From positions 2,046,001 through 2,110,000 of the forward strand of contig NZ_CP115960.1 in assembly GCF_027941955.1 (NCBI RefSeq): a stretch of 64,000 nucleotides of DNA. Reading direction: 5' to 3'. Of the stretch, positions 28,305 to 37,203 are shown piece after piece. The DNA is from Sphingomonas sp. 7/4-4. Its GTDB lineage: Bacteria > Pseudomonadota > Alphaproteobacteria > Sphingomonadales > Sphingomonadaceae. The notes under the pieces are model-generated. The model did not search any database. It saw nothing but the letters and a program-made list of their open reading frames with translations, and was not told where the DNA came from. Both the position numbers and the translations under genes were made by a program. Position 1 is the first letter of the stretch, and each line of letters begins with the position of its first letter.

Positions 28305-29763
28305 ATGCGTCGTGCGGTGTTCGGCTCACTCCTCTTCCTCGCCGCCTGCAGCAGCGACGGCAATGGCGACGGCGCCACCCCCACGCCAACCCCGGGCCCC
28401 AATAGCCCGCCGAGCTTTACTTCGGCCGCCACGGCCAGCGTCGCCGAAAATACGGCGCTTGCCTATCAGGCCAGCGCGACCGATCCGGAGGGCAATCCAA
28501 TCACCTTCTCGATCACCGGCGGCGCCGATCAGGCGCGCTTTACGATCAGCGCCGCCGGCGCACTGAGTTTCGCCGCCAACCCCAATTTCGAGCTTCCCGC
28601 CGATGCCGACGGCAACAATATCTACGCCGTCCAGCTGCGTGCCAGCGACGGCACCGCCAACGCGACGCTGGACTTGCAGGTCACAGTCACCAACAGCCGT
28701 GAAGGCATCGCCGTCCGCCGCGTGGGCACCGGCTTCGACCAGCCGATCGACGTGGCGGCGGTGCCGGGCGACAACAGCCGTGTGCTCGTCGCGGAGAAGA
28801 CCGGCGGCGTCTGGTTCCTGACTCCATCCACCGGCGCGAAGGCGCTTGCCTTCCGCGTGACGGGTCTCACCACCGAAAACGAACGGGGGCTGCTCGGAAT
28901 CGCGCCGTCGCCCAACTATGCCACCACCGGCGAGGTCATGGTTCATATGACCGGTACCGCAGGCACGATCTTCATCCGCCAGTGCTTCGTGCCGGGCGGA
29001 GCGTGCAACGACGTGCTGTCGATTCCGCACCCGACCAACAGCAACCATAATGGCGGCTGGATCGCGTGGGGTCCTGACGGCAATCTCTATGTCGCGGCCG
29101 GCGACGGCGGCGGAGGGGCGATCCGAACAACAATGCGCAGAATCCCAATTCGCGGCTCGGCAAGATCCTGCGGCTGGCGCGGGGCGGCGCGGGGGCTTCG
29201 TCGCGGCGCCCGGCAATCCATTCGCAGCGGGGGGCGGCGATCCCTATGTCTTCGCGCTCGGCCTCAGGAATCCCTTCCGCAATTCGTTCGACGGCAACCG
29301 GATCATCATCGCCGATGTCGGCCAGAGCGCGATCGAAGAGCTTGATCTGGCGCGCACCGATCAGCCAGGCCTCAATTTCGGCTGGCGCTTCCTCGAAGGG
29401 ACCCAGCCTTTCTCCGGCACCGCGCCGGCCGGGCTGACCGCACCGGTATCGCAATATGGCCATGGCAGCGGCCCGCGCGAAGGCGGATCGATCATCGGCG
29501 GCTATGTCTATCGCGGCCCGATCACGTCGCTGCAGGGCGCCTATGTCTTCGGCGACTTCATCAGCGGCAATATCTGGACCCTTCCCGCCGCCTCGCTCGT
29601 GCAGGGATCGCTGTTCCCCGCGTCGAGCTACGAACGCCGCAATCAGGATTTCACGCCGGACGCCGGCACGATCGATCAGCTCGTATCGTTCGGTCTCGAT
29701 GGCGTGGGCAACCTCTACATCGTCGATATCGCGGGCGAGATATTCGAGGTGGTTCCGGCGTAA
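28305..29763 (+). CDS. PQQ-dependent sugar dehydrogenase-like lipoprotein with cadherin-like domain, two frame breaks
   Basis: A 486-residue protein with lipobox LFLAACSSD and a Thr/Pro linker. Residues about 38-135 are a cadherin-like repeat (SVAENTALAYQASATDPEGNPI, SDGTANATLDLQVTV). The C-terminal region is a glucose/sorbosone-dehydrogenase beta-propeller: GFDQPIDVAAVPGDNSRVLVAEK, NERGLLGIAPSPNY, NSNHNGGWIAWGPDGNLYVAAGDGG, PYVFALGLRNPFRNSFD, VGQSAIEELDL, GGYVYRGP and GDFISGNIW. Two single-base losses in G runs (29115-29118 and 29191-29195) interrupt the middle. It likely oxidises sugars in the periplasm with PQQ supplied elsewhere. Confidence 0.87.
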
Positions 29764-31319: not shown

Positions 31320-32057
31320 TCAGTGCGAAGCTTCGGCATTCGAAATGAGCACGAAACTGATATTGTCGCTGCCGTCCTTCAGGAGCGCCTCGGCGAGCAA
31401 CTGATCGGCCTCGCCGGCGCGCACCGGATCCAGCGAGCGGCTGAGCCCATCCGAGCAGAGCAGAATCGCTTCGCCCGCGATGATCGGGAAGGATGTGCAG
31501 GCGATCTCAACCGTGGCATCGACGCCGAGCGCGCGGGTGATGACGTGCGCGCGCGGATGATGCACGGCGTCGCTCGCATCGATCAGGCCCTGGTCGAGCA
31601 ATTCCTGGACGAGGCTGTGATCGCGGGTCACCTGTTCCCAGACACCGTGCGCTGCCCGATAGGCGCGGCTGTCTCCGGCCCAGAAGATATGCGCCTCGCC
31701 CCGCGCGATGTGCAGGGCGACGATCGTCGATCCGATGACGCCTCCCGCCACGGCGCTGCGGGCGAATATCTCGTCATTTGCGCGCGCCAGGGCCACCCGG
31801 ATCGCGTCGTTCGTGATCGGGGCCGGATCGTCGGCGAGATCGTGGAGCGCGGCCACGGCGAGCTCGGCGGCGATGTCGCCCCCGCGATGCCCGCCCATGC
31901 CGTCGGCGACTGCCCAGAGCGCGCGATCGGGACGATTGAGGATCCGGTCCTCATTGACCTTGCGCACGCGCCCGACATGCGTTCGCGCCGTCGACTGGTA
32001 TCCGGTGGCGGCCGGTTCTCCGTGAGCGGGAGCGGACGGCACAATAGTCGCGTTCAC
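31320..32057 (-). CDS. PP2C-type Ser/Thr phosphatase (PppA/Stp1-like)
   Basis: A 245-residue PPM phosphatase. Metal motifs are VGRVRKVNEDR (first Asp region), WAVADGMGGHRGGDIAA, IFWAGDSRAYR, VTRDHSLVQELLDQG, LLCSDGLSRSLD and KDGSDNISFVLI. It removes phosphate from Ser/Thr targets and in type VI secretion systems (PppA) opposes PpkA. The GTG start at 32057 overlaps the TagH-like stop (GTGA). Located last in the kinase-FHA-phosphatase triad, it is expected to reset the same circuit. Confidence 0.92.
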   Translation of the reverse strand: MNATIVPSAPAHGEPAATGYQSTARTHVGRVRKVNEDRILNRPDRALWAVADGMGGHRGGDIAAELAVAALHDLADDPAPITNDAIRVALARANDEIFARSAVAGGVIGSTIVALHIARGEAHIFWAGDSRAYRAAHGVWEQVTRDHSLVQELLDQGLIDASDAVHHPRAHVITRALGVDATVEIACTSFPIIAGEAILLCSDGLSRSLDPVRAGEADQLLAEALLKDGSDNISFVLISNAEASH

Positions 32058-33045
32058 TTGCTCTGCTCGGCCGCGGCATAAGCCTGGACGAAAGCACGAT
32101 CGAGCGTCCCTTCCTCCCCTCGAGTTGCCGCGACAGATCGGCATGCCGCGCGGCGATCTCCGCAGATTGCAGCACATGCTTGCTCTTGAGCAGCGAGCCC
32201 TTCGCCGAAACCGCCGCGTCTATTTGGGCAGGATCGAAACTGGTCACCGCCTGGCGGAGCGAGGCCTGCAGCCCGGCAAAGGTCGCGATCAGATGGCGCT
32301 TGACGTCCTGCAGCGAGCCGCTGATCGCCGCGGGCCCTGACAGGAAGCCGCCGACGCCCGAGAGCAGCAAGTCGATCGCGAGGCGCTGGGTGGGCGCCCA
32401 TTTGAACGGGTTGTTGCCCGAACCGCCGATCGTCGTGCGGCTGAGATTGTAGCGGCCGCGCGCGCGGTCGCGCTCGATCATCAAATCGGCGATCCCCAGC
32501 ACCATTTGGCGATAGACCGCGCCCGCGCGCTCCATCACTTCGGCGGGCTCTTCGCTCGACAGCAAGGAGGCATCGAGGCCGGCGCCGCGGCAAAACGCTT
32601 CGAGCAGTGATTCGCCGTCCGACGCGGCGATCGGTTGCGCATCGGTCCAATCGGTCAGGATCGCAGTGGAGGCGCCTAGCGGTGGCGTCAGCACCATGGT
32701 CTTGCCGGTATCGGTGTCTTCGTCGTCGAGCGGCGCGCGGCTCGCGGCGATCCGGAACCGGCCCATGCGCAGCGTGAAGGGAACGCTGATCGGCACGTCG
32801 ACCAGATCGGGCAGCCGATCACCGGTCTCGTCGTCGAACACGCCGTTGGTGCCGATCGGGCGGACGATCAGGCCGTCGGCCGACGCCGCGACCTCGCAAT
32901 GCTCGCGCGAGAGCGCGCGGTCGGGATCGGCGATCGGCCAGTCGCACTTGGTGTCGCGGCCGATGCTGATCGCGCCGTCGCGCAACAGCCGGGCGTCGAT
33001 CGGCTGGACCGAATCGTCGACATCGAAGAGCTGGAGCATGTACAT
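32054..33045 (-). CDS. tagH: FHA-domain protein TagH (type VI secretion-associated), one frame break
   Basis: A 330-residue protein. Residues 1 to about 95 are an FHA phosphothreonine-binding domain (SIGRDTKCDWPI with G29-R30, LSREHCEV, TNG at 66-68). After a linker, residues about 175-330 match the TagH C-terminal domain: NPFKWAPTQRLAIDLLL, GFLSGPAAISGSLQDVKRHLIATFAGLQASL. One base is lost in CCCC 32115-32118; restoring it gives EGEEGTLDRAFVQAYAAAEQSK and the stop at 32054. In Pseudomonas, Fha1 phosphorylated by PpkA licenses secretion assembly. It starts one base after the kinase stop. Confidence 0.85.
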
Positions 33046-33046
33046 T

Positions 33047-34711
33047 TTACGCCGCCCGCTTCGGCGCGATCTGGATGCAGGTCGCGTCCAGCGCGGGCTC
33101 CTCGGCCGCCTGCGCGCCGTTCAGCCGCGGCTCCATCTCGCTTGCCAGCCTATTGAAACCGTCGAACAGCGCGCCGATCTCGTCGCGCCGCCGGTGCGAG
33201 ATGCGGGAAGCGAAACCGTTCGCGCGCGCCTCATCGAAGCTCTGCTGCAGCCGGCGCAACGGCCGCACGACCATCGCGCCACTCATATAGCCGATCACCA
33301 GCACGACGAGCATGATGATCGAGGCGAGCACGAGCAGCCAGGTTCGCGCATTCATCATCGCCGCATCGAGCGAAGTGCGCGGCAGCAGGATGTCGACCGA
33401 ACCGAAATCGGCCCCGGCGTAGCGGATCGGCCGGATGAAGCGCAGCGCGCCGCCCTTGCCGTCCGGCGCGTTGGTGACGGCCGGACCGGTCGCCGCGCTC
33501 AGCCGCTGTTCGTCCATCGGCGCGGAATAATGCCGCCCGATGCGCTCGCCATCGCTCGCCGCGCGGATCGTGCCGCTCGCGTCGGTCACGACAATCCCGC
33601 GTACGCCACCGCCCTGGCTAGCCGCCGCCACGAAGGCCTGCAAAGCCGCCCAGTCCTGCTGCTCCGGCGGAAGCCCGGCATTGTCGGCGAGCAGGACTGC
33701 CGCATTCTGGGTAACGAAGGTGGCGATCGTCTCGCCCGATGTGGTTGCCATATGCTCCAACGCGCGCTGCTGACGCGTCAGGATCGTCGAGATGCTCAGC
33801 AGCAGCGCGACGAGCGTGATCGTCACCAAAGCGAGCGGCAGCTTGACCCGGATGGAAAGGCCGCGACGGACCACTGCGTCCTCGGCGTTCAACGCCGCGC
33901 CCTCGCGCTCGAGCGCCTGCACGAGTTGCGCACCGTCGGCGAAGCGCTGATCCGGCTTCTTGGCGAGCAATTTCTCGATGATCTGACGCAGCCCCGGCGG
34001 GCAATCGGCGGCGGAGCGCTCGATCGGCGCGACCTTCTCCTGCGCGATCTGCAGCGCGAGCGTGGCGAGCCCGGTGGCGTCGAATGCGCTCTTGCCGGTG
34101 AGCATCTCGTAGAGCACCGCGCCGAGCGAAAACAGATCGGAGCGCGGGTCCACGGGCAGGCCCAGCGCCTGTTCGGGGCTCATGTAGCGCGGCGTACCGA
34201 TCATCTGCCCCGCCTGCGTCCGGGCCAGTTGGCCCTCGCTCTCGCCGATGCGCGCGACGCCGAAGTCCAGCAGCTTCGCGGTCTTGCCGTCCGCGGAGAG
34301 CAGGATGTTCGACGGCTTCACGTCGCGGTGCACGATCCCCAGCGAATGGGCGTAAGCGAGCGCGCCGCTGAGCTGCACGCCCAGCGCCAACACGCGCTCG
34401 AACGGCATGCGCCCCTGCGCCTGCAGCACCGCGTCGATCGGCAGCCCCTCTATGAGCTCCATTGCGATGTACGGCACGCCATCGGCCTCGCCGACGTCGT
34501 AGATGGTGGCGATATTGGGATGATTGAGCGCGCCCGCGGCACGTGCCTCGCGCAGGAAGCGGGCGCCGAGTTCCGGATCGCGGCGATAATCAGGCTTGAG
34601 CGCCTTGATCGCCACCACGCGCCCGATGTCCGGATCATGCGCGCGAAAAACGTCCGCCATCGCGCCTTCGCCGATGCGTGCTTCGATCCTGTATCGGCCC
34701 AGCTTTTCCAT
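33047..34711 (-). CDS. Membrane Ser/Thr protein kinase (PpkA-like)
   Basis: A 554-residue eukaryotic-type kinase. Residues 7-260 are the kinase domain: IGEGAMADVF P-loop, catalytic K36, HRDVKPSN (D130), DFG at 149-151, GTPRYMSPEQ. A transmembrane helix near residue 285 (LPLALVTITLVALLLSISTIL) leads to a periplasmic double-beta sensor-like region (VTDASGTIRAASDGERIG), a second helix (LLVLASIIMLVVLVIGYM) and a HAMP-like segment ending in the cytoplasm. This topology matches PpkA. It likely senses an envelope signal and phosphorylates TagH. An LysM lipoprotein gene lies upstream with a 67-bp gap. Confidence 0.92.
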   Translation of the reverse strand: MEKLGRYRIEARIGEGAMADVFRAHDPDIGRVVAIKALKPDYRRDPELGARFLREARAAGALNHPNIATIYDVGEADGVPYIAMELIEGLPIDAVLQAQGRMPFERVLALGVQLSGALAYAHSLGIVHRDVKPSNILLSADGKTAKLLDFGVARIGESEGQLARTQAGQMIGTPRYMSPEQALGLPVDPRSDLFSLGAVLYEMLTGKSAFDATGLATLALQIAQEKVAPIERSAADCPPGLRQIIEKLLAKKPDQRFADGAQLVQALEREGAALNAEDAVVRRGLSIRVKLPLALVTITLVALLLSISTILTRQQRALEHMATTSGETIATFVTQNAAVLLADNAGLPPEQQDWAALQAFVAAASQGGGVRGIVVTDASGTIRAASDGERIGRHYSAPMDEQRLSAATGPAVTNAPDGKGGALRFIRPIRYAGADFGSVDILLPRTSLDAAMMNARTWLLVLASIIMLVVLVIGYMSGAMVVRPLRRLQQSFDEARANGFASRISHRRRDEIGALFDGFNRLASEMEPRLNGAQAAEEPALDATCIQIAPKRAA

Positions 34712-34778
34712 AACGCCTTCCGGCTCCGCCCGACCTGTGGCTTAGCGGCGGAGACTTAAGGATTTATTGTGCGCAGCC

Positions 34779-35503
34779 TCATTGTCGCGCGCGCACGGTG
34801 GCGGCGATCCGCTGGGCGCGCTGGAGATCGCGCAGGATCATCGCATTGCCCGGATCCAGCGCATTAGCACGCTGAAGCTGCGTCACTGCCTCTTTCACTG
34901 CCCCCGGTTGAGCGCCGCCAGCCCCGCAGAGCGCGCGCGCTGAGCCGCAGCCGGGTTCGCGGCGGGCTTTGCAGGCACAGAGGCCGGGGCGGCAGGCTTC
35001 GACCTGGGCGCCGCGGGTGCGGACCGCGACGGCCGCTCCGGCGCCGGCTGCACCTTGGGACGCGGTGGCGTTCCCGGGATGCGGATGGCCTGCCCGGCTG
35101 CCAGCGCCGAAGGGTTGACCAAGCCATTGTAGCGCGCGAGCTGGTACGCTTTCAGGCGATTGCCGAGCAGACGCTCGGCCAATTGCTCGATCGTCTCGCC
35201 GGGCCGCACGACATAGGGATAGCTGACCGGTCCCAGTTGCTCCTGCGGATCGCCCGCGATCGAATCGCGCAGCAACAGCAGTTGCGGGTTCATCGGCTCG
35301 CGCTTCAGCAATGGCTCCAGCTGCTCCCCGGCGCCCTTGGAGTCGCCCTGCATCAGCAGCGCCTGGACGCCATCGATGTCGCTTTCCGCCACTGCAACCG
35401 GCACCGGCACCGGCGCGGTCTTTGGCGGCGGCGCTTTCGAACAGGCGGCGAGCGCGAGTGCGCCTGCCAGCGCGGCAAGGCGCAGGATCGATCGGTGCTT
35501 CAT
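34779..35503 (-). CDS. LysM lipoprotein with TPR-like tail, one frame break
   Basis: A 241-residue lipoprotein (LALAACSK lipobox). Residues about 95-145 form a LysM peptidoglycan-binding motif (YVVRPGETIEQLAERLLG...LARYNGLVNPSALAAGQAIRIP). A Pro/Ala-rich linker follows. One base is missing in CCCCC 34901-34905; with it the tail AVKEAVTQLQRANALDPGNAMILRD reads as a TPR-like repeat, and the stop is at 34779. The ATG overlaps the GGDEF/EAL stop (ATGA), linking envelope binding with c-di-GMP turnover and possibly with the kinase just downstream. Confidence 0.87.
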
Positions 35504-37203
35504 GTTGCGAGCCTCTTGGAAAGGTTCATCTGGACCTGCCGCGCATCGAGTACGAGCAATGCGCGCAAGCTGGCCGGATTACGGACGAATGCCTGGAACT
35601 CCGCCCCGGTGAGCGGCGGCGAGAAATAAAAGCCCTGGAATTCCGAACAGCCGTGGCGCCGGAGCCAGAGATATTCCTCCTGCCGCTCGACGCCCTCGGC
35701 GAGGACGCGGATGCCGAGCCCGCGCGCGAGCGCGATGATGCTCTGGCAGATCGCCTGGCTGTCGCGGCGGCGCTCGACTTCGGTCACGAACTGCCGGTCG
35801 ATCTTGATCTTGTCGAACGCCAAAGCCCGCAACGCCGAAAGGCTCGAAAAGCCGGTTCCGAAATCATCGATCGCGATGTGGATGCCGAGCGCGTGAAGCG
35901 CCTCGAACAGCCGATCCGCGCGATCGATATCCGCGGCAGCGGCGCTTTCGGTGAGCTCGATCTCGAGCATTCCGGCGCGCAGCGAATGCCGTTCGAGCGT
36001 ACGCTTGATCAGCGTGTGGAGATCGGCACGATCGAGCTGGTGTGCCGAAACGTTCACCGCCACCGAGAGCGGGCTCTTCGCGATCCTGTGCCACTTCTTC
36101 GCTTCACGGCACGCGGCGTTGAGCGCCCAGAGCCCAACTTCCTCGATCATGCCGGCATTTTCGAGGATCGGGATGAACAATGTGGGCGAGACCATCCCAC
36201 GCGCCGGGCTGTTCCAGCGCAGCAGCGCCTCGGCGCCGATTATGCGGCCGTTCGCGGCATCGACTTGCGGCTGATATCGCAATTCGAACGCGTCGTTGTT
36301 CAGCGCACCGCGCAGATCCTGCTCCAGTGCATAGCGTTCGCGCTCCGCGGCCGCCGAAATCTCATCGATCCGCTGGACTTGCAGCGGACCTTCGGTGACC
36401 GCGCAGGCCGCCAGTACACGAGCAAGCGTCGCCTGCGAGGCTTCCTCGTCAGCCGACCAGGATGCATGGTGAACGCGAACCTCGGGCAACAGCTCGCGCC
36501 CTTCGTCGTGCATCGTTCCACTAAGCGCATAGCTGATCGCGACAAGCTGCTGCCCAACCTCTTGCGCAGTCGTCTGCGGGCCGAACCAAAGCGCGAAATG
36601 CGCGCGATCGACATGCGCTACCATCCGGTCGCCCCCGATCATCCGCGTGATCCTTTCGGCGAACTGCTTGAGCGTGCGATCGGCAAGTGCAGGATCGAAG
36701 GCGCACAATCGATCGAAGTCGCTCAGCGCGATCAGCCCCAGCGTCCCCGCGCCATCGGCTTCCATGCGCGCCAGCAGCGGTTCGCGGGTCGGCAAGCGAG
36801 TCAGCGCATGGCGCTGGTCCAGACGGTCGTCATTGCTCCGAAGTCTGTCTTCAATGCAGTCGGTCGCGGAGGCCAGGATCGTCCATGCCGAGCCCTGCTT
36901 TGGTATCCTCGCGAGCTTTGCGAGCCGATCCGCCACCGCCGCCAATCGGCTGCGCACCACGAGATGCGCGCAGAGCCCCGCTGCGGCCAGTAGGCCGATC
37001 GGCCAAAGCGGCTGCCGAAACACCGCTCCAGCGACGAGCGCAGTGCCCGCCAGCAGCAAGCTGCCGGCGCGCAAAAGGGATATCGGACCGCTCCCCCGGG
37101 CAGATAACCACGGCGCATACGCGGCTTGATACCGCTGCGACTCATACGAAGGAGTTAAGGAAACACCCTTCGCACAAGCGTTTAACATAGATTTATTTAC
37201 CAT
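35500..37203 (-). CDS. Membrane GGDEF/EAL protein, degenerate GGDEF, intact EAL (c-di-GMP phosphodiesterase)
   Basis: A 567-residue protein with two hydrophobic helices near residues 43-90 (LLRAGSLLLAGTALVAGAVF, LLAAAGLCAHLVV). The GGDEF-like region has LTRLPTREPLLARME but HVDRAHFALWF where the signature should be, so cyclase activity is unlikely. The EAL domain keeps the catalytic set: GAEALLRW, VNVSAHQLD, IELTESAAAAD, IDDFGTGFSSL, KIKIDRQFV, EGVERQEEY, FQGFYFSPPL. It should hydrolyse c-di-GMP. Start ATG 37203 (MVNKSML) or 37188; the stop overlaps the LysM lipoprotein start. Confidence 0.9.
   Translation of the reverse strand: MVNKSMLNACAKGVSLTPSYESQRYQAAYAPWLSARGSGPISLLRAGSLLLAGTALVAGAVFRQPLWPIGLLAAAGLCAHLVVRSRLAAVADRLAKLARIPKQGSAWTILASATDCIEDRLRSNDDRLDQRHALTRLPTREPLLARMEADGAGTLGLIALSDFDRLCAFDPALADRTLKQFAERITRMIGGDRMVAHVDRAHFALWFGPQTTAQEVGQQLVAISYALSGTMHDEGRELLPEVRVHHASWSADEEASQATLARVLAACAVTEGPLQVQRIDEISAAAERERYALEQDLRGALNNDAFELRYQPQVDAANGRIIGAEALLRWNSPARGMVSPTLFIPILENAGMIEEVGLWALNAACREAKKWHRIAKSPLSVAVNVSAHQLDRADLHTLIKRTLERHSLRAGMLEIELTESAAAADIDRADRLFEALHALGIHIAIDDFGTGFSSLSALRALAFDKIKIDRQFVTEVERRRDSQAICQSIIALARGLGIRVLAEGVERQEEYLWLRRHGCSEFQGFYFSPPLTGAEFQAFVRNPASLRALLVLDARQVQMNLSKRLAT

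Follow-up and report, generated by a model that had tools for sequence, protein, structure and literature searches.

We analysed a stretch of 64,000 nucleotides (nt) from Sphingomonas sp. 7/4-4 (NZ_CP115960.1, positions 2,046,001 to 2,110,000; hereafter the window) and find that its minus strand carries, from 37203 to 31320, a block of five genes which encode, in this order, an EAL protein, a LysM lipoprotein, a Ser/Thr kinase, a TagH-type FHA protein and a PP2C-type phosphatase. This five-gene block recurs in many sphingomonads and some Caulobacter relatives, and most of the carriers checked lack markers of the type VI secretion system (T6SS). On balance, we think it probable that the cassette is a threonine-phosphorylation module of the inner membrane which is self-contained and independent of T6SS, and which would switch the EAL enzyme by way of docked TagH. 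An initial annotation of the window had described a kinase-TagH-phosphatase triad next to LysM and GGDEF/EAL genes, and had read it either as a stand-alone, envelope-sensing phosphorelay that meets cyclic di-GMP (c-di-GMP) signalling or as a detached regulator of a distant T6SS; the observation is confirmed in part, being real and larger than described, and the interpretation is likewise supported in part. If our proposal is true, Ser/Thr phosphorylation and c-di-GMP are joined in one gene block, and the function of the T6SS_FHA_C domain can be studied without a secretion machine, guided by short predictions that concern one threonine and two alanines. Because the name TagH denotes a component of the T6SS, the cassette invites mis-annotation as T6SS. 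No description of it was found in the literature, in which subscription papers were mostly outside the coverage, so it may be described elsewhere.

Gene order and conservation

The host genome is one contig of 4.42 Mb. In a Pfam/NCBIfam scan of the window proteins, the first gene of the block (35500-37203) encodes a membrane protein with an EAL domain (246.8 bits), a predicted c-di-GMP phosphodiesterase, and the second (34779-35503) a lipoprotein with a LysM domain (PF01476, 33 bits) and a C-terminal TPR-like stretch. The third (33047-34711) encodes a Hanks-type kinase with Pkinase (163.2 bits) and HAMP (34.8 bits) domains, the fourth (32054-33045) the TagH-type protein with FHA and T6SS_FHA_C domains (PF00498, PF20232 and TIGR03354), and the fifth (31320-32057) a PP2C-type phosphatase (PF13672, 41.8 bits) whose GTG start lies inside a GTGA overlap. 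The ATGA overlap reported between the EAL and LysM genes is present at 35503-35500 of the minus strand. The coupling claimed for the other three genes holds for the 1-bp gap between the kinase open reading frame (ORF; 34711-33047) and the TagH ATG at 33045 and for the GTGA at 32057-32054, but the TagH frame as assembled misses the GTGA junction.

The TagH alignment was used for a pattern-based scan of 84,980 species genomes, which yielded 71 loci. Of these, 56 have enough flanking sequence on either side, and in 50 of the 56 the five genes are complete and in order, in Sphingomonadales and Caulobacterales; three of the remaining six have no PP2C gene (L094, L122 and L136), two (L137 and L142) have TagH without the cassette kinase, LysM or EAL genes, and the last is the Caulobacterales locus L132. 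At the latter (L132:4422-8981), an EAL gene with a detectable GGDEF domain overlaps TagH, another kinase and a PP2C gene lie on the opposite strand, and there is no LysM gene. An overlap or a gap of at most 20 nt separates EAL from LysM in 53 of 55 loci, the kinase from TagH in 61 of 64 and TagH from PP2C in 41 of 44, whereas the commonest other neighbour family occurs, within the available flanks, in at most 7 of the 71. The gene order thus recurs in dozens of loci, which is beyond chance, and the conserved order and overlaps strongly support the LysM and EAL genes as members of the block. A complete cassette is also found on the 1.28-Mb Sphingobium plasmid pTomTYG65a (L144; AP027331.1 968850-979821), where every junction overlaps by 1-4 nt and the annotation lists four hypothetical proteins and one protein phosphatase.

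The nearest cassette TagH rows to that of the window come from Sphingomonas naasensis, Sphingomonas sp. DG1-23 and S. gei. The TagH tree places Phenylobacterium together with Sphingomonas, and one row from Erythrobacteraceae (L072) falls among those of Sphingomonas, a mixed placement which suggests horizontal transfer. Because the TagH proteins of two T6SS genomes (L019 and L025) and of three loci of untested T6SS status (L137, L141 and L142) group on the cassette side, with three label changes over the tree, cassette TagH does not appear as one clean clade. Of the alignments, A1-A5 hold 19, 18, 12, 16 and 14 rows drawn from L039-L058, L068 and the window, with rows cut by contig ends, near-copies and doubtful starts omitted; A6 holds 56 of 68 TagH rows and A7 59 of 64 available rows. 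Carriage as phage cargo was considered and rejected, as there was no phage match and one plasmid match each for the kinase and TagH, and fused cassette genes, which would have been taken as proof of contact, were not found.

T6SS markers across genomes

In the host genome (G000), searches for five T6SS core markers gave 0 matches to PF05943, PF06744, PF05936, PF05638 and PF05591, and TssC, TssM, TssK, Hcp and TssB were not found. The earlier statement that no Tss genes lie within 30 kb of the cassette therefore holds and extends to the whole genome for these five markers; the proposed genome search for TssB, TssC and TssM came back empty, and a full T6SS without its own tagH was not found. Among 347 Sphingomonadaceae genomes, 41 carry TagH (PF20232), and 19 of these 41, but no others, carry TssC. 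Inspection of the genes around TagH covered the 22 carriers that lack TssC and 10 of the 19 that have it; in the other nine, no TagH is more than 25 kb away from a TssC of its own contig. A cassette-type kinase and TagH occur together in 20 of the 347 genomes, and 14 of these show all five genes (L039, L049 and L053 are cut by contig ends). Seventeen of the 20 lack TssC, TssM and TssK, and the three that combine cassette and T6SS (G043, G123 and G084) each hold a separate TagH for the T6SS. The other five TssC-less TagH genomes comprise one with an interrupted TagH (G149), one with TssM on the TagH contig as well as TssK (G231) and three with a T6SS-type TagH (G186, G266 and G320), which in G186 and G266 adjoins a PppA-PpkA pair on the opposite strand. 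In 398 Pseudomonadota genomes, TagH was found in 70 and TssC in 87, and the only TssC-less TagH carriers, G000 and G205, both carry the cassette. No TssC-like stretch was seen beside loci L072-L142 within the locus flanks. Some of the 71 loci belong to genomes of the family sample too, so the counts are not additive.

These results support the description of the cassette as stand-alone. The competing idea of a regulator detached from a T6SS elsewhere in the genome can point to the family membership of TagH and to the T6SS in three of the 20 cassette genomes, but it is left unsupported by the empty marker searches, by the 17 carriers without TssC, TssM and TssK and by the T6SS genomes, which have their own TagH. 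For the searched markers it is refuted; it would need a divergent apparatus or the loss of five genes to assembly indels, and we regard it as exceedingly improbable.

The window copy itself reads as broken in two genes. The TagH frame of the assembly runs on to 31951, while tblastn with relatives ends the homology at 32107 and places the usual C-terminus of the family in another frame. Similarly, the LysM frame stops at 34895, whereas its homology covers 35503-34901 and then, in another frame, 34904-34782, with an end predicted from homology at 34779. Both breaks fall in G-rich runs, the listed completeness of the genome is 88.82% despite its single contig, and the genes are intact in relatives; the breaks are therefore probably indel errors of the assembly. 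Elsewhere in the window, at 28305-29763, a pair of ORFs in two overlapping frames resembles one broken gene, by our reading of the sequence probably a sugar dehydrogenase, which adds to the suspicion of indel errors. The two broken frames, together with the TagH tree, in which L019, L025, L137, L141 and L142 fall on the cassette side, could also be taken to mean that the cassette is the decaying remnant of a lost T6SS locus. We consider this very unlikely, as the cassette is kept in dozens of species, across orders and on a plasmid, has EAL and LysM genes added and has a different kinase architecture.

A side observation concerns four loci (L059, L061, L062 and L063, in G186, G266, G297:C4 and G320) which encode a T6SS-type TagH (E ~1e-49) in genomes without TssC, TssM and TssK, three of them beside a PppA-PpkA pair encoded on the other strand. 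These may be a further type of TagH that exists outside T6SS, or the outcome of a recent loss.

Components and proposed switch

The arrangement resembles the T6SS threonine phosphorylation pathway (PpkA-Fha/TagH-PppA, with TagQRST or RtkS), which likewise combines a Ser/Thr kinase, a protein with FHA and T6SS_FHA_C domains and a PP2C phosphatase, the last adjoining TagH in both. According to the excerpted text of PMC10482370, an outer-membrane and a periplasmic protein activate the kinase of that pathway, Fha is phosphorylated and PppA resets the system; TagQ of P. aeruginosa is an outer-membrane lipoprotein encoded upstream of the kinase, and in the cassette too a lipoprotein gene precedes that of the kinase. 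The cassette differs in that no T6SS was found and in the addition of the LysM lipoprotein and the EAL enzyme.

The kinase consists of a kinase domain, a transmembrane span, a periplasmic domain, a second span, HAMP and a short tail, the spans being read from sequence and model, and its catalytic residues are invariant (18/18 aligned). The periplasmic domain is Cache-like: it matches sCache_3_2 with 26.1 bits (cut-off 28.4), and its structure model (predicted local distance difference test, pLDDT, 81.5) finds the WalK, DctB, DcuS and CitA sensors. PASTA repeats were not detected by Pfam, and NF033483 matches only the kinase domain (303.1 bits, cut-off 450). The label PpkA-like thus fits the kinase domain and fails for the architecture, since the T6SS-type kinases of the same family lack HAMP in all three scanned (L061, L065 and L071); six of eight T6SS-type kinases carry EMVWF near the end, L071 has DILWF and L060 neither. 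After HAMP, the cassette tail is poorly conserved save for one threonine (Thr544 in the window, codon at 33080-33082), present in 62 of 64 aligned kinases, with Ile, Val or Leu at +2 in 63 of 64. These 64 are the 63 relatives plus the window, taken from 65 listed rows of which 64 have a clean start, with L139 dropped as cut or broken. The variants are DRTRL (L124), DRTII (L125) and Thr-His-Tyr (L097). In addition, 45 of 66 kinases end in Ala-Ala (33050-33055 in the window), compared with 10 of 248 background ORFs and with 1/70 TagH, 0/54 LysM, 1/63 EAL and 2/61 PP2C proteins. Two terminal alanines approximate a class I ClpXP motif, as in MopJ of Caulobacter (excerpt of PMC4432633), and CtrA is stabilised when its C-terminal alanines are changed (excerpt of PMC4433202); by this analogy the kinase end is a candidate ClpXP degron.

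The kinase also bears on an anti-phage defence function, for which one could cite the patchy distribution and the PADLOC kinase models (PD-T4-6, up to 320.5 bits) whose matches lie in the kinase domain, next to one weak PP2C model (31.1 bits). The kinase matches span the generic kinase domain, and EAL, LysM and TagH match no PADLOC model, which makes such a role highly improbable.

TagH scores 159.7 bits against TIGR03354 (VI_FHA; cut-off 120.25), and a model made for the L072 protein (pLDDT 83.2) shows an FHA and a helical domain. Matches in the PDB were uninformative about the identity of the C-terminal domain, the best 50 of 385 being FHA or FHA-like in so far as their titles show it. The FHA residues R30, S46, H49 and N67 are invariant in 56/56 relatives, so that TagH appears to keep its phosphothreonine pocket, which is consistent with phosphothreonine-dependent signalling and says no more than that. 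A threonine of the linker (Thr116, codon at 32698-32700) is a second candidate phosphosite; it is conserved in 51 of 56 relatives, and in 49 of the 56 it has Ile, Val or Leu at +2. By profile, the closest solved FHA chains are OdhI (E 4.9e-07) and GarA (E 3.4e-06), FHA switches of PknB-type kinases with a phosphosite of the Thr-x-V type, whose partner domains and pathway differ from those of the cassette. Bdellovibrio DgcB structures (6hc0 and 6hc1) are among the matches listed for TagH; like DgcB, an FHA-GGDEF protein, the cassette would tie a phospho-reading FHA domain to c-di-GMP, but DgcB has FHA and cyclase in one chain and the cassette has a separate EAL enzyme. In A. tumefaciens, Fha docks on phospho-Thr14 of the membrane protein TssL in a PpkA-TssL-Fha pathway, and docking is lost in Fha R30A S46A (excerpt of PMC3953482). 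The two residues are shared with cassette TagH, whereas the candidate docking threonine of the cassette lies on the kinase itself, with no TssL context.

Of the remaining proteins, the phosphatase keeps its DGMGG, GD, SDG and DN motifs in 14/14 rows (NF033484, Stp1-like, 179 bits, below the cut-off of 230), the lipobox Cys of the LysM protein is invariant in 12/12 aligned rows, and the LysM protein of the plasmid relative shows weak TPR matches. In 57 EAL relatives, E.L.[RK], E[LI]TE, DDFG, K[IML]D and AEG are kept in 57/57, [FY]QG in 55/57 and VN[LVI]S in 48/57. By contrast, GG[DE]EF occurs in 0/57, a relaxed GGDEF-like pattern anywhere in 4/57, and Pfam finds no GGDEF match in the window protein, with remnants in L132 (39.2 bits) and, below the cut-off, in L144. 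Of the name GGDEF/EAL protein the second half therefore stands and the first does not: judged by motifs, EAL looks catalytically competent and GGDEF degenerate.

On the pattern of the T6SS threonine phosphorylation pathway, we infer the following switch. The Cache-like domain would sense the state of the envelope, perhaps aided by the LysM lipoprotein as TagQ and TagR aid PpkA, and HAMP would relay the signal to the tail, where the kinase would phosphorylate its own conserved Thr-x-[IVL]. The FHA domain of TagH would dock on the phospho-tail, and Thr116 of TagH may be phosphorylated as well; once docked, TagH would control the adjoining membrane EAL phosphodiesterase and so change c-di-GMP locally, and PP2C would reset the switch. 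As long as TagH leaves the terminal Ala-Ala uncovered, ClpXP would be able to turn the kinase over. Envelope sensing and a meeting with c-di-GMP, as first annotated, are thus plausible from domain content and neighbourhood, while phosphorelay is the wrong word for a kinase, phospho-reader and phosphatase without His-Asp transfer domains in the Pfam scans. More tentatively, it is possible that Cache-HAMP kinases with their own C-terminal phosphothreonine, T6SS-free TagH docking that controls a membrane EAL enzyme and ClpXP turnover of the undocked kinase form a distinct signalling class of Alphaproteobacteria, and that the T6SS pathway is one of two lines which stem from an older membrane phospho-switch.

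Several points weigh against the proposed switch. The loci are related by descent, so their counts are not independent events, and the copy in the window is the broken one described above. The Cache assignment lies below the cut-off and was not made by Pfam in three relatives (L072, L124 and L144), the tail column is not Thr in L124 and L125, and Ala-Ala is missing from 21 of 66 kinases. PP2C is lacking from the three loci of the 56 named above, and was not found in the family-sample loci L041, L049, L055 and L057, which are partly from the same genomes as the 71-locus scan. The link from TagH to EAL is suggested by gene neighbourhood. Finally, only 13 of 62 loci have LysM and the kinase within 20 nt of each other (median gap 67 nt), and many gaps contain a promoter-like element, so that EAL-LysM may also be transcribed separately from kinase-TagH-PP2C. 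In the window this element is CTTAAG-N8-GCTAAG (34741-34760, minus strand); TTAA occurs in 34 of 48 gaps of 20-140 nt (mononucleotide-shuffled mean 6.2, maximum 14) and CTTAA in 24 of 64 kinase upstreams compared with 12 of 246 control upstreams, these being counts of related loci and not of independent events.

The same kinase-TagH-PP2C module could instead act on a cell-wall or envelope machine, with the EAL protein merely co-regulated or upstream. Three observations would fit: LysM and EAL are kept to about the same degree, WalK is one of the sensors that the model of the periplasmic domain resembles, and the promoter-like element often splits the two halves; but a 4-nt overlap joins EAL to LysM in 36 of 55 loci and LysM to the kinase in 8 of 62, and L132 keeps an EAL gene overlapping TagH without any LysM gene. 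We hold an envelope-machine output to be rather unlikely, and the L132 arrangement speaks for control of EAL by TagH.

Upstream elements and a second EAL gene

Upstream of the EAL gene, a recurrent TTAA-N7-GTAT element (37144-37159, minus strand) was counted in 19 of 58 EAL upstream stretches and in 7 of 5729 control windows, with a pattern that had been picked after inspection of these same stretches. Because the element lies inside the gene as called, the EAL start at 37203 is doubtful, and the true start is probably downstream of 37144. A regulon that shares the element was not supported: the strict pattern YTTAASNNNNNCGTAT has one genome match, its own site, and the reversed pattern four, which is chance level, and the count tells only that no regulon is visible. 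Control by CtrA, suggested by the TTAAC elements, was likewise rejected, since the TTAA-N7-TTAA box, the consensus given in the excerpted text of PMC11264516, occurs in 0/64 kinase and 0/58 EAL upstream stretches, and a stress-sigma promoter of the form GGAAC-N15..18-CGTT had 0/57 matches. Two loci have a further gene for an EAL protein, which is encoded on the opposite strand immediately past the downstream end of the cassette (L041:6837-9218 and L050:6356-8428).

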